A DNA stretch of 14,339 nt. It comes from Bacillota bacterium. GTDB taxonomy: Bacteria; Bacillota; Dehalobacteriia; UBA4068. The position numbers and the translations under genes are program-made. Where the stretch lies: the NCBI GenBank assembly GCA_017439615.1, contig JAFSIU010000062.1, positions 1-14,339 of the forward strand, written 5' to 3'. Position 1 is the first letter of the stretch, and every line of letters starts with the position of its first letter. Below, piece after piece: positions 8,141 through 14,339 of the stretch. The notes below the pieces were generated by a model. The model saw nothing but the letters and a program-made list of their open reading frames with translations. It made no database searches and was not told the DNA's origin.

Positions 8141-8719
8141 TTAAACGATTGCAGGCAGAATATCTTCTTGCCTAAAAATATTTTCTATTTCCGTCACAGA
8201 CCTTTGCAAATCATCATTAACAACCTGATAACGATAATGTGCTGCTAACTCCAATTCGGCAGAAGCGCGCTGCAGACGCAGAACGATGTCTTCTTCTTTT
8301 TCAGTCGCACGACCTCTGATACGCTGCTCCAAAACCTCGATTGACGGAGGCAAAATAAATAAGGAAACACACTCAGGTCTTTTTTGCATGACCTGCAAGG
8401 CTCCCTGAGTATCAATCTCAAGAATGACCGACTTGCCGTCTTCAATAAAGCTATCAACTGCAAAGGCAGGTGTGCCATAGCAATTGCCAAACAGCTCAGC
8501 CCATTCCAAAAAGCCGTCATCTTTCACCATGCCGAGAAAGCATTCCCTACTCATGAAATAATAATTGACACCATCTTCTTCACCATCACGCGGAGCTCGC
8601 GTAGTGGCGGAAACAGAATAGCGCAGTTCAGGATGTTTGTCCAAAAGAATCTGACAAATGGTTCCCTTGCCTACGCCGGAAGGACCGGATAATACTACTA
8701 ATTTTCCCTTTTTACACAT
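8141..8719 (-). CDS. gmk: Guanylate kinase
   Basis: Gmk phosphorylates GMP to GDP with ATP, feeding GTP, dGTP and (p)ppGpp pools. The 192 residues fit the family (about 200). The P-loop GPSGVGKGT (12-20) is intact, followed by SVSATTRAPRDGEEDGVNYYF, which carries the GMP-binding Ser/Arg/Tyr region, EWAELFGNCYGT, and the lid segment RIRGRATEKEEDI. The ATG at 8717-8719 has only a weak AGG nine bases upstream, while an in-frame stop lies just before it, so no longer start is possible. A terminator-like hairpin separates it from the mihF-like gene, so it may have its own promoter in the 8720-8798 leader. Confidence 0.97.
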   Translation of the reverse strand: MCKKGKLVVLSGPSGVGKGTICQILLDKHPELRYSVSATTRAPRDGEEDGVNYYFMSRECFLGMVKDDGFLEWAELFGNCYGTPAFAVDSFIEDGKSVILEIDTQGALQVMQKRPECVSLFILPPSIEVLEQRIRGRATEKEEDIVLRLQRASAELELAAHYRYQVVNDDLQRSVTEIENIFRQEDILPAIV

Positions 8720-8753
8720 AATCTATAACCTATCGATGGAAATACTAAATGAT

Positions 8754-8784
8754 ATTGATTAGTCTTAAACAAAAACTAATCAAT
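8754..8784. repeat. Perfect 10-base inverted repeat in the gmk leader
   Basis: ATTGATTAGT (8754-8763) and ACTAATCAAT (8775-8784) are exact reverse complements around an 11-base AT-rich spacer. It lies 35-65 bases upstream of the gmk ATG and just beyond the mihF terminator. It is AT-rich, so it is a better candidate for a protein-binding site or mRNA leader hairpin than a terminator. Confidence 0.55.
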
Positions 8785-8798
8785 TCCTAAAAAATTAA

Positions 8799-8834
8799 GA
8801 TAACCGGATAGATTCTGAAAACCTACCCGGTATC
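8799..8834 (-). terminator. Probable intrinsic terminator after the mihF-like gene
   Basis: Arms 8799-8811 and 8823-8834 pair as GATA, CCGG and TAG segments with one bulge and one mismatch around an 11-base loop. On the minus strand the stem is followed by TTAATTTTTTA. It lies 23 bases beyond the mihF stop and would separate yicC-mihF from gmk, perhaps only partly because the stem is imperfect. Confidence 0.65.
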
Positions 8835-8857
8835 CTTTTCATCATTAAAAATTAAAA

Positions 8858-9163
8858 TTAGGAAAGCTTTTCAAGCAAAGCAGCCTTTTGTCTGTTGCCA
8901 AGGCCCTGAACTCTGCGGGCATCATCAATGCCGACTTCTTCCATAATTTTAGCAGCAGTGATTTTGCCGACCTGAGGAAGAGATTCGAGCAAATATTTAA
9001 CTCTCATCTTTGCAAATACTTCGTCTTCGCTTGCCAAAACGGCTTCCAAGGTCAAAGCACCGCTCTTGAGCTGTTTGCGAGCTTCCATACGCTCACTGCG
9101 GATTTTCTGAGCTTTTGCCAATGCTTTTGCTCTTTCTTCAGGGGATAATTTCGGAATTGCCAT
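8858..9163 (-). CDS. mihF: MihF-type (actinobacterial integration host factor) DNA-binding protein
   Basis: MihF proteins are small nucleoid-associated DNA-binding proteins with a helix-two-turn-helix fold, first described as mycobacterial integration host factor and unrelated to the proteobacterial IHF alpha/beta pair. This 101-residue protein has the family layout: a basic N-terminal helix beginning near LSPEERAKALAKAQ (6-19), a linker, then KMRVKYLLESLPQVGKITAAKIM and RRVQGLGNRQKAAL, which parallel the MihF signatures LLESLPGVGK and RRVRGLG. Start ATG 9161-9163 has GGAGG nine bases upstream. It lies between yicC and gmk; in Actinobacteria mihF also directly precedes gmk and rpoZ, whereas many Firmicutes have remA at this place. 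A terminator follows. The family call is strong; the role in this organism is inferred. Confidence 0.88.
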   Translation of the reverse strand: MAIPKLSPEERAKALAKAQKIRSERMEARKQLKSGALTLEAVLASEDEVFAKMRVKYLLESLPQVGKITAAKIMEEVGIDDARRVQGLGNRQKAALLEKLS

Positions 9164-9220: not shown

Positions 9221-10063
9221 CTATTCCAGGTTCTGCACCTGCTCGCGAACCTTTTCCAATTCGCTTTTTGCTTCAATAACGAGCTTAGTAATGGCGGTAA
9301 AGTTCGCTTTTGAGCCAATAGTATTCACTTCCCTATTCATTTCCTGAACTATGAAATCAAGCGTACGTCCGATGGGCTCATTGCTTGTCATAGTTTCTCT
9401 GAATTGCTCGATATGGCTTCCCAATCTTGTCAATTCCTCAGCAATATCCGACTTGTCTGCGAAAATTGCTGCTTCCTGCAGAATACGTGCTTCGTCGATC
9501 GGCACTTCCTGCAGAACCTTTGTCATCCTCTCAATCAGCTTGTCCCTGTAATCAGCAGCAACCTGAGGGGCAAGCACGGTGATTTGTGCAACAAGTTTCT
9601 CCAGATAATCCACTCTCTGCAGCAAATCAACTTTCAGCCTTTCGCCTTCCTGTTGTCTCAGATTGATCAATGAATCTGCTGCAGCATGCAAACAAGCAAG
9701 CACTGTTTTGGGCAGATCTTCATCTTCCATTGATATATCAACTGTCTGCATAACATTAGGGAAACTGCAGATCTGCAGCAGCGACAGATTCTCCGAAATG
9801 CCACATAAATCACACAGGTCTCTTAATTCATTATAATACGCGATGGCTGCCTGTTTGTCAATACTTATTGGTGGTCTTTTGCCATTTTTATACTCATAAC
9901 TTAGGTAGATATCAACCTTGCCTCTTTTAAGCAAAGCCTGTACCTGCTTTTTTGCATCATCTTCGCAGGCAGCGAACTGTCTGGGGAAACGCGTGTTGAC
10001 TTCAAGAAAACGGCTGTTAACCGACTTGATTTCAATTGTAATATTATAATCTCCGCAAGCCAT
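9221..10063 (-). CDS. yicC: YicC-family endoribonuclease, lacking its N-terminal motif
   Basis: YicC proteins are RNases of the YicC/YloC family. The 280-residue open frame contains the N-terminal domain (NITIEIKSVNSRFLEVNTRFPR) and the characteristic C-terminal domain with SHIEQFRETM, GRTLDFIVQEMNREVNTIGSKA and a final EKVREQVQNLE. The family normally begins with M-x-x-SMTGYG. Here the open frame begins at ATG 10061-10063, after that motif. The same frame upstream reads KSMTG, then TAA (10076-10078), then CRES, preceded by a GTG with a good ribosome-binding site. The natural start is therefore cut off by an in-frame stop. The ATG at 10063 has only a poor GAGAG upstream, so a shortened protein would depend on re-initiation. 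With the missing 12 codons the length would be 292, normal for the family. Either a real nonsense change or a base-call error explains it. Confidence 0.9.
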   Translation of the reverse strand: MACGDYNITIEIKSVNSRFLEVNTRFPRQFAACEDDAKKQVQALLKRGKVDIYLSYEYKNGKRPPISIDKQAAIAYYNELRDLCDLCGISENLSLLQICSFPNVMQTVDISMEDEDLPKTVLACLHAAADSLINLRQQEGERLKVDLLQRVDYLEKLVAQITVLAPQVAADYRDKLIERMTKVLQEVPIDEARILQEAAIFADKSDIAEELTRLGSHIEQFRETMTSNEPIGRTLDFIVQEMNREVNTIGSKANFTAITKLVIEAKSELEKVREQVQNLE

Positions 10064-10099
10064 GGACTCTCTGCATTAACCAGTCATACTTTTTGCCAC
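10064..10099 (-). pseudogene. yicC: Severed original start of yicC (in-frame TAA in SMTGYG)
   Basis: Minus-strand codons from GTG 10097-10099 read M-A-K-S-M-T-G-stop-C-R-E-S and then join the YicC frame at 10063. GGAGG at 10108-10112 lies eight bases ahead of the GTG, so this is the expected translation start. The conserved Tyr-Gly pair is replaced by TAA TGC at 10073-10078. Confidence 0.85.
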
Positions 10100-10170
10100 A
10101 ATTCCAGCCTCCTTTTTTGGCTTAATTCGCTTTGAAATCGCAAATTCCTGCTTTTTTGCAAATTTCTCAT

Positions 10171-11753: not shown

Positions 11754-14339
11754 TTATTCAACTGATTTCAGGGACTCGACCATACTGATTTTATCCAGGC
11801 TGCGACGCATAACAAGAGAAACAACCAAAGAGAAAAACATTGTTACGACAAAAGACATTATATAACTGCCGAGATAGATTTCTCTGCCGAACATGACCAT
11901 ATCAACTTCAGCAGTCTGAATAACAAACATTGCAAGGAAATAGCCCAGAAGCAGACCTGCAACAGCACCGAGCATTGTAATAATGATATTTTCACGGAAA
12001 ATATATGAACTGACCTCGCCGCTGCGGAAGCCGAGAACCTTCAAGGTAGCAATCTCTCTTATGCGCTCATTGATATTGATATTTGTCAGATTATAAAGAA
12101 CGACAAAGGCAAGTGCACCGGCAGACAAAATAAGGACTATCATAACGAAATCAAGAATCTTTATCATATCCTCAAATCCGCTGCGGATATCAGAAGTCAT
12201 ATTTACCTGCAGAATGTTGTCATTTTTCAGCAATTCTTCGGCTAAAACAGATTCATTTTCAGCAGATAATGCCCCCGTTTTCAGAAGCATTGTATTGAAC
12301 TGAAGATTTTCTCCGAACAAGCTTTCATAATCAGCCGCTGTCATATAGACATAGTGATTTGCATAATGCTCTGTTATTGCACTGATGCGGATCCTGATCT
12401 CCTTGCCGTCATCGAGCAATATTATCTCATCTCCTACATTTTTGCCTGCCATTTTGGCAAGCTTTTCGCTGACGATGCATTCACCCTGATGAAGAGTATA
12501 GCTCTCATCTTTGGTCCTGGAATGGAGATTAACAAATTTGTCGAGCAGCTCTGCATCTTCCGGGATCAAAACGGTTGCAGAAAATGTTTTCTTGGGAGTT
12601 TCGACATCAAAATTCTTCTGCACTGTCTTCATTCCCAAAGCAGTGTCCGAAAAGCGTGCTGCTGCATCAATGGCAAATTGATAGTCCTCGGCAGCAGCAT
12701 TCTCATCAAAGGCTGCTATCACCTGATATTTCCAAATATCACCAAATTGCTTGCTGATGATATCACCGATTGAATCACGCAAGCCAAAGCCTGTCAGCAA
12801 AAGTGCTGTACAGCCGGAGACGCCGACTATGGTCATAAGCATACGTTTTTTGTATCTGACGATATTGCGCACGGAAACCTTCTTGCTGAAATCAAGACGA
12901 TTCCAGAAGAAGCCTATTCTTTCAAGAAAAACACGCTTGCCTGCGGGCGGAGCTTTGGGACGCATAAGCTGGGCCGGTTCCTGTTTAAGACAGCTGCGGC
13001 AGGATGCCCAGACAGTGATGCTGACACAAACGATCGTAGCAGCAACACAATATGCTCCTAATTCAAAGTCGAAAGGCGTAAGCAGTGTCGGCATATCATA
13101 CATCATGCCATAGGCAGTGATAATGACCCACGGAAAAACACGGGTGCCGACAGCAAGACCGATCAATGCACCAAGCACCGAAGCAGTCAATGCATAAAAC
13201 AAATATTTCACCATTATCTGTCCGTTTTTATAGCCAAGTGCTTTCATGGTACCGATTTGTGTACGTTGTTCATCAACCATTCGTGTCATACCTGTCAGAC
13301 ATACAAGTGCTGCTACCAAAACAAAGAAAACCGGAAAAACCTTGGCGATATTATTGATTCGCTCAGCATTCTCACCATATTCTGCATAGGCAGGATTATC
13401 GCTGCGGGTAAAAATATACCATTCGGGCATTTCAAGATCGGCAAGCTCTGCCTCAGCATCAGCTATCTCAGCTTCTGCATCGGCTATTTCCTGTTCGAAC
13501 TCTGCCAAGCCTTCTTCATATTCGCGTTTGCCGTCTTCGTATTCAGCCAAGCCCTCAGCATAATCAATTTTTGCCTGTTCGAGCTCGGCCACGCCATCTT
13601 CATAAGCCTTTACGCCATCTTCATATTCGGAAACACCTGTCAAAAAATCGGCCTCGGCCTGCTCATAATCAAGCTTGCCCTGCTCATAATCTCTGACTCC
13701 CTGCTCAAATTCAGCGCGTTTTTCTTTCAGAAGCTCAGCACCTGCATTATATGCAGCCACACCTGCCTGATACTCGGCATAGCCTGCCGCATAGTCAGCT
13801 TCACCTTTTTCAATTTCGGCAAGACCTGCAGCGAGAGCACTCATAACCTGCTGCTCCTGCTTCTGCAGCTCGGTACGACCTGCAATCAGTTTCGCTTCAT
13901 TTTCAGCCAACTGTACTGCAGCAGCTTCAAGCTGTGCATTCAATGCCTGATATTGTGCTGCAGCTTCAAGATATTGCTCACTGTTTTCACCCAAAGCTTG
14001 CTTTATCTGTTCCATCTGCTGTTGCAAGCCTGCAGCAGCAGCCACACCTTGCTCATATTCCGCTTTTCCTGCAGCAAGGACGGCTTCGCCCTGCTCCAAT
14101 TCAGTATAAGCGGCGGAGAACTGCGCTTCGGCAGCTGATTTATTTGCTTCATATTCTGCACGTCCCTTGGAAAGCTGTTCTTTGGCAGCAGCCAATTCTT
14201 TTCCTGCATTATCGAGCAGAACCTTATTATCTGCCAATTCCTTTTCGCCCGCTTCGAGATCTTTTCTGCCATCTTCTATCTGTTTCCCGGCAGAGTCCAG
14301 TTCAGCCTTGGCATCATCAAGCTGCTTTCTGCCGTCCTC
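11754..14339 (-). CDS. FtsX-type ABC transporter permease with long heptad coiled coil (5' end off the window)
   Basis: This is the membrane subunit of an ABC transporter of the MacB/FtsX-like permease type. The frame stays open to the window edge, so 861 residues are visible and the true start lies outside; the TTG at 14235-14237 is internal. Visible parts: about 300 residues of coiled coil made of seven-residue units with Tyr/Leu and Gly (such as AEYQAGV, KAYEDGV, AEYEDGK); a first FtsX domain opening with a membrane segment near 332-350 and the cytoplasmic RMVDEQRTQIGTMKALGYKNGQI; further membrane segments; an extracytoplasmic domain of about 200 residues; and a C-terminal FtsX domain with NINERIREIATLKVLGFRSGEV followed by two more segments. 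In related proteins one membrane segment precedes the coil, and an ATPase gene lies nearby; both would be beyond the edge. Lipoprotein or peptide export or surface signalling is possible; the substrate is unknown. Confidence 0.9.
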   Translation of the reverse strand, partial: EDGRKQLDDAKAELDSAGKQIEDGRKDLEAGEKELADNKVLLDNAGKELAAAKEQLSKGRAEYEANKSAAEAQFSAAYTELEQGEAVLAAGKAEYEQGVAAAAGLQQQMEQIKQALGENSEQYLEAAAQYQALNAQLEAAAVQLAENEAKLIAGRTELQKQEQQVMSALAAGLAEIEKGEADYAAGYAEYQAGVAAYNAGAELLKEKRAEFEQGVRDYEQGKLDYEQAEADFLTGVSEYEDGVKAYEDGVAELEQAKIDYAEGLAEYEDGKREYEEGLAEFEQEIADAEAEIADAEAELADLEMPEWYIFTRSDNPAYAEYGENAERINNIAKVFPVFFVLVAALVCLTGMTRMVDEQRTQIGTMKALGYKNGQIMVKYLFYALTASVLGALIGLAVGTRVFPWVIITAYGMMYDMPTLLTPFDFELGAYCVAATIVCVSITVWASCRSCLKQEPAQLMRPKAPPAGKRVFLERIGFFWNRLDFSKKVSVRNIVRYKKRMLMTIVGVSGCTALLLTGFGLRDSIGDIISKQFGDIWKYQVIAAFDENAAAEDYQFAIDAAARFSDTALGMKTVQKNFDVETPKKTFSATVLIPEDAELLDKFVNLHSRTKDESYTLHQGECIVSEKLAKMAGKNVGDEIILLDDGKEIRIRISAITEHYANHYVYMTAADYESLFGENLQFNTMLLKTGALSAENESVLAEELLKNDNILQVNMTSDIRSGFEDMIKILDFVMIVLILSAGALAFVVLYNLTNININERIREIATLKVLGFRSGEVSSYIFRENIIITMLGAVAGLLLGYFLAMFVIQTAEVDMVMFGREIYLGSYIMSFVVTMFFSLVVSLVMRRSLDKISMVESLKSVE
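13434..14339 (-). repeat. Heptad-repeat (xxYxxGx / xxLxxGx) coding region of the ABC permease
   Basis: The region encodes repeated seven-residue units rich in Glu, Ala, Tyr and Gly, for example YEDG, YEEG, YEQG and YAEG at seven-residue steps between about 13480 and 13820, becoming less regular towards 14339. It matches the known type of Leu-x-x-Gly heptad repeat protein. Codons vary between units, so this is protein-level repetition and not a recent DNA expansion. Confidence 0.85.

Follow-up and report, generated by a model that had tools for sequence, protein, structure and literature searches.

The window analysed here is the whole of one contig (G000:C191; 14,339 bases). It comes from a draft genome, presumably a metagenome bin, that totals 1,258,746 bases over 206 contigs and is 74.21% complete and 4.45% contaminated. 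On its minus strand lies yicC, which is followed by the gene for an integration host factor (IHF) and by gmk (Table 1). Read as codons, the start of yicC consists of GTG (10099-10097), GCA, AAA, AGT, ATG (10087-10085), ACT, GGT and TAA (10078-10076), continued by TGC (10075-10073), AGA, GAG, TCC and ATG (10063-10061). The translation of this frame is V-A-K-S-M-T-G, the stop TAA, C, and R-E-S up to ATG 10063, from which the frame is uninterrupted to a TAG ending at 9221 (280 aa). An earlier note on this DNA had described a GTG with a GGAGG site and a frame passing through M-A-K-S-M-T-G, TAA and C-R-E-S into YicC, and the codon reading bears this out. The same note held that a simple ORF caller hides the stop by starting at the later ATG; the mechanical ORF list indeed gives ATG 10063 as the start of yicC, and the upstream TAA is therefore hidden.

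Table 1. Features of the yicC region in the window.
Feature	Position	Strand	Basis
GGAGG ribosome-binding site of the GTG start	10108..10112	-	Read directly; 8 bases before GTG
First 12 codons of yicC, with GTG start, broken at codon 8	10064..10099	-	Codon reading; agreement with P0001 at 9/12
In-frame TAA; Tyr or Phe of SMTG[YF]G in relatives	10076..10078	-	Stop in 0/97 other loci
TGC (Cys); Gly in relatives	10073..10075	-	Reading of the loci; G9 invariant in alignment A1 (n=36)
Rest of yicC (280 aa; YicC-like_N and YicC-like_C)	9221..10063	-	ORF list, Pfam, TIGR00255
Integration host factor gene, actinobacterial type, directly downstream of yicC	8858..9163	-	NF041260; same place in 16/17 family loci
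Guanylate kinase gene gmk, downstream of yicC	8141..8719	-	TIGR03263; 16/17 family loci, 79/80 named loci

The 280-aa ORF matched positions 16-291 of the 291 positions of TIGR00255 (YicC/YloC family endoribonuclease) with 248.5 bits, which is above the curated cut-off of 167.5. It shares both Pfam domains with that family, PF03755 (positions 16-155 of 156, 121.8 bits) and PF08340 (positions 4-120 of 120, 157.9 bits), and it matched E. coli YicC as found in the PDB (8ver, 8ves, 8hvj). Among the strongly conserved columns of the family, 61 are present in the ORF, and 60 of these are kept. The window differs from the family in that codons 8-9 read stop-Cys and that the first 12 residues, S4, M5, T6, G7 and G9 among them, are missing from the ORF starting at ATG 10063. 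An uninterrupted N-terminal SMTG[YF]G with its Met5 was thus not found, codon 8 being TAA and the product from ATG 10063 carrying no part of the motif. No second copy of yicC was detected in the window's own genome (74% complete), which yielded a single match.

The gene order yicC-IHF-gmk of the window is also that of most loci from the same family. Using tblastn within 1500 bases, the IHF gene and gmk were both found downstream of yicC in 16 of the 17 loci from the same family; of the 80 named loci, 79 gave gmk downstream and 0 the IHF gene. The gap between the IHF gene and gmk in the window (8720-8857) measures just 138 bases. In one relative (L003) a gene of 90 residues, which we take to resemble RemA/DUF370, is located between the two. 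The spacing of the genes leaves room for a gene of this size at 15 of the 17 family loci; L007 has no such room. At L019 no gmk was seen.

A search for protein homologues scored 7996 candidates; the 120 proteins considered here are the listed best of 7791, and the window's own 280-residue protein has no separate entry among them. The nearest homologue within these best 120 of 7791, P0001, is 91% identical to the YicC of the window; it starts with VVKSMTGYGRESMACGDY and has a length of 292 aa, i.e., 280 + 12. At nine of its 12 codons before ATG 10063 the window encodes the residue found in P0001, the differences being Ala for Val, stop for Tyr and Cys for Gly. Because P0001 is longer by exactly 12 residues and has the same start region, the upstream residues belong to YicC and are no chance match. 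The motif MTG[YF]G was kept in all 120 listed homologues (best 120 of 7791), with SMTG[YF]G in 108 of them and a start at the inner Met, giving MTG[YF]G, in the other 12. At the DNA level, MT[GS][YF]G without a stop was observed in all 97 loci other than the window (50 MTGYG, 41 MTGFG and 6 MTSFG). These comprise the 17 loci from the same family and the 80 named loci, the latter being the best 80 from 542 confirmed ones; L001 and L002, which represent the window itself, do not enter the count. The search within the family covered 20 genomes and gave a match in 18, including the window's own, and no match in G004 and G017; the search for further genomes of the genus found only the window's own. 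The residues S4, M5, T6, G7 and G9 were invariant in alignment A1, which holds 36 of the 120 listed homologues. Since the motif is intact in the 97 other loci and the 120 listed proteins, the stop is private to the window copy among the sequences seen.

According to the genetic code, Tyr-Gly and stop-Cys are separated by two or more neighbouring base differences. The earlier note had named the bases to be expected at this place, but those exact bases were a guess, several different codons being used by the relatives at the Tyr/Phe-Gly site. Regarding a possible local template, GTTAATGC and TTAATGCA were found nowhere else in the window, TTAATGC occurred once more and TAATGCAG twice more, with no evident donor. 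Rfam yielded no match in the window at gathering thresholds.

The remainder of yicC differs from P0001 at 25 of 280 residues. With P0002 as outgroup, the window branch received 5 changes and the P0001 branch 7, 13 being assignable to neither; the corresponding figures were 3, 7 and 15 with P0003, 3, 8 and 14 with P0002 and P0003 together, and 4, 5 and 16 with seven outgroups. In A1, 66 columns are conserved at 90% or more. Sixty of them are kept in the window, one is changed (M147 to L) and five are missing, namely S4, M5, T6, G7 and G9, all within the lost start. Further stops in the 280-codon frame and an excess of changes on the window branch, the signs to be looked for in an established pseudogene, were not found. 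The Gmk of the window is 85% identical to P0122, as compared with 91% for YicC and P0001; if P0001 and P0122 come from one organism, as is assumed because each has a longest contig of 428,259 bases, YicC is not changing faster than Gmk. An old pseudogene was considered and is unlikely, because there is no excess on the window branch, the conserved columns are kept and YicC, on that assumption, is not faster than Gmk. Judged from these comparisons, the change is either very recent or an artefact of the draft genome.

The two possible starts were compared by the pairing of the 20 bases upstream of each with a typed 16S tail, taking random 20-mers of the window as reference. The pairing upstream of GTG 10099 was -13.1 kcal/mol, a value attained by 0.5% of the random 20-mers, whereas that upstream of ATG 10063 was -5.2 kcal/mol, attained by 32% and hence at the level of chance. 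Equally weak values were obtained in the same window for gmk (-5.5) and for a gene that we take to be omega-like (-5.3), so that poor pairing is not in itself sufficient to exclude ATG 10063 as a start. In the alignment of P0001 to the solved chain of E. coli YicC, M5 coincides with the Met of SMT. Ten mutants of E. coli YicC, that of M5 to alanine among them, showed no cleavage according to a preprint (PMC10793500). As this Met is missing and is needed for cleavage by E. coli YicC in that preprint, the product restarted at ATG 10063 is predicted to be inactive. A restart there, which the earlier note had considered, is not supported as a working gene, Met5 being lost and the pairing at chance level (32%).

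Other genes were inspected as a check for errors. The matches to rpoB and gyrA in the window's genome are free of stops, as are the pieces of uvrA and valS, which are cut at or near contig ends. In the window, nearly the full length of the respective NCBIfam model is covered by murE, rsmH, mraZ, metK, gmk and IHF. The ftsI-type gene likewise spans almost all of the spoVD model, with 679 bits, i.e., 9 bits under the cut-off of 688. The best model match of the MFS gene was under the cut-off, and the putative ftsL gave no match to an NCBIfam model. A candidate for a second broken gene (L100, G000:C60:1500-5600), in which two TAA had been flagged within an aminoacyl-tRNA synthetase match, was rejected; the two are the end of an open gene, leuS-like by the name read from its sequence, and a codon beyond. 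There is no sign of widespread errors in the genes checked, which counts against a consensus error.

The most likely explanations of the stop are a sequence error and a very recent knock-out; either way it is a lesion of this one copy among the sequences seen and involves no new mechanism. The earlier note had offered a real nonsense event and a base-call error, and these proved to be the right alternatives; a shared later start is excluded by the relatives. A consensus error (in assembly or base call) in this one draft contig is favoured, with even confidence, over a genuine recent null allele, which is a serious candidate of lesser probability; these weights are judgements and were not computed. 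If the error is real, at least two neighbouring bases would be wrong and yicC would be intact in the living organism; we infer a technical rather than a biological cause. An error is preferred because the relatives, including P0001 at 91%, are intact and the loss of the motif is private, because the rest of yicC is without relaxation, because two neighbouring differences hit two conserved residues where a simple nonsense mutation needs fewer, and because the genome is a draft (206 contigs, 74.21% complete, 4.45% contaminated). The YicC cluster holds four sequences on seven contigs, and Gmk is present as one sequence on four contigs (the window's own) and one on three (P0122); as these contig numbers add up (7 against 4 + 3), it is suggestive only that YicC calls, unlike those of Gmk, may vary between assemblies, and partial genes, other start calls or a further species would produce the same difference. 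An ordinary nonsense allele and a gene-breaking consensus error in a draft likewise present one isolated break in a clean frame of a single copy, but with one base difference, whereas the window needs at least two neighbouring ones. Were the stop a genuine, very recent nonsense allele of the strain, arisen by a tandem base change, translation from GTG 10099 would stop after 7 residues and leave little or no active YicC, a loss that could be tolerated given the redundancy frequent among RNases of one class. According to PMC10793500 (preprint), removing an RNase gene may have no strong phenotype, the functions being redundant, and this redundancy speaks for such an allele. A recent origin agrees with the undecayed remainder of the gene, and the clean state of the other window genes indicates that random error is not rife, which also favours the allele; against it are the requirement for at least two neighbouring base changes and the absence of the stop from the relatives (0/97).

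All other explanations are far less probable. It is improbable that the arrangement is a maintained variant in which a leader of 7 residues is followed by a restart at ATG 10063, giving a shortened working or altered YicC. An in-frame ATG does follow close after the stop, 12 bases on, the protein downstream is conserved, and weak pairing is no bar, since gmk and the omega-like gene pair just as weakly (-5.5 and -5.3). The product would, however, be without S4, M5, T6, G7 and G9, which are invariant in 36 sequences; the M5 alanine mutant of E. coli YicC has no RNase activity in PMC10793500, the pairing of -5.2 kcal/mol is reached by 32% of random 20-mers, the corresponding Met is missing in P0002 and P0003, and none of the 97 relatives has the same arrangement. 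There is a slim chance that the YicC of this lineage, produced by restart after the 7-residue leader, really is without the SMTGYG start, with an RNase activity that is lost or changed and with its remaining parts still under selection. A TAA that is read through or recoded to give full-length YicC is very unlikely: although the frame continues unbroken and in register past the stop, the next codon still encodes Cys for a conserved Gly, and of 12 gene ends examined in the window 8 are formed by TAA (murE, ftsI, metK, the omega-like gene, gmk, IHF, MFS and ABC) as well as the leuS-like gene elsewhere. Recoding is unlikely because TAA is thus an ordinary stop in this genome; to our knowledge, no bacterial code has TAA as a sense codon. 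Least credible, to the point of being negligible, is a coincidental upstream match with ATG 10063 as the normal start. The mechanical ORF list does begin at that ATG, but P0001 has the exact extension of 12 residues, GTG 10099 has a strong ribosome site, and in the family profiles the part that is matched is preceded by 15 more positions. The earlier note had considered that relatives all starting at the later Met would make the match coincidental; instead, the relatives aligned at the stop codon have no stop and carry the motif in 97/97 loci, as do 120/120 listed proteins (best of 7791), and P0002 and P0003, the next among the best 120 of 7791 listed, have no Met where the window has ATG 10063. 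The upstream match is therefore real.

If the preferred consensus error applies, the locus is a further case of a gene silently shortened by callers. An annotation from ATG 10063 would then misstate the YicC protein, because the 12 lost residues include the Met needed for activity in E. coli YicC (PMC10793500). If instead the allele is real, it would be a natural knock-out of a widespread RNase; the cellular role of YloC is described as unknown in the same preprint (PMC10793500). Neither the error nor the allele alters the picture of the YicC family, and the finding is an ordinary one.

Two further observations concern the ends of the window, where mraY and the ABC gene extend off the contig. 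In cell-wall clusters murF is usual between murE and mraY; here murE is directly followed by mraY (663-747), with no murF at that place. The gene at 11754-14339 encodes a large ABC-type permease, which gave only a weak match to lolCE and includes a long segment, charged and repetitive, that resembles a coiled coil.
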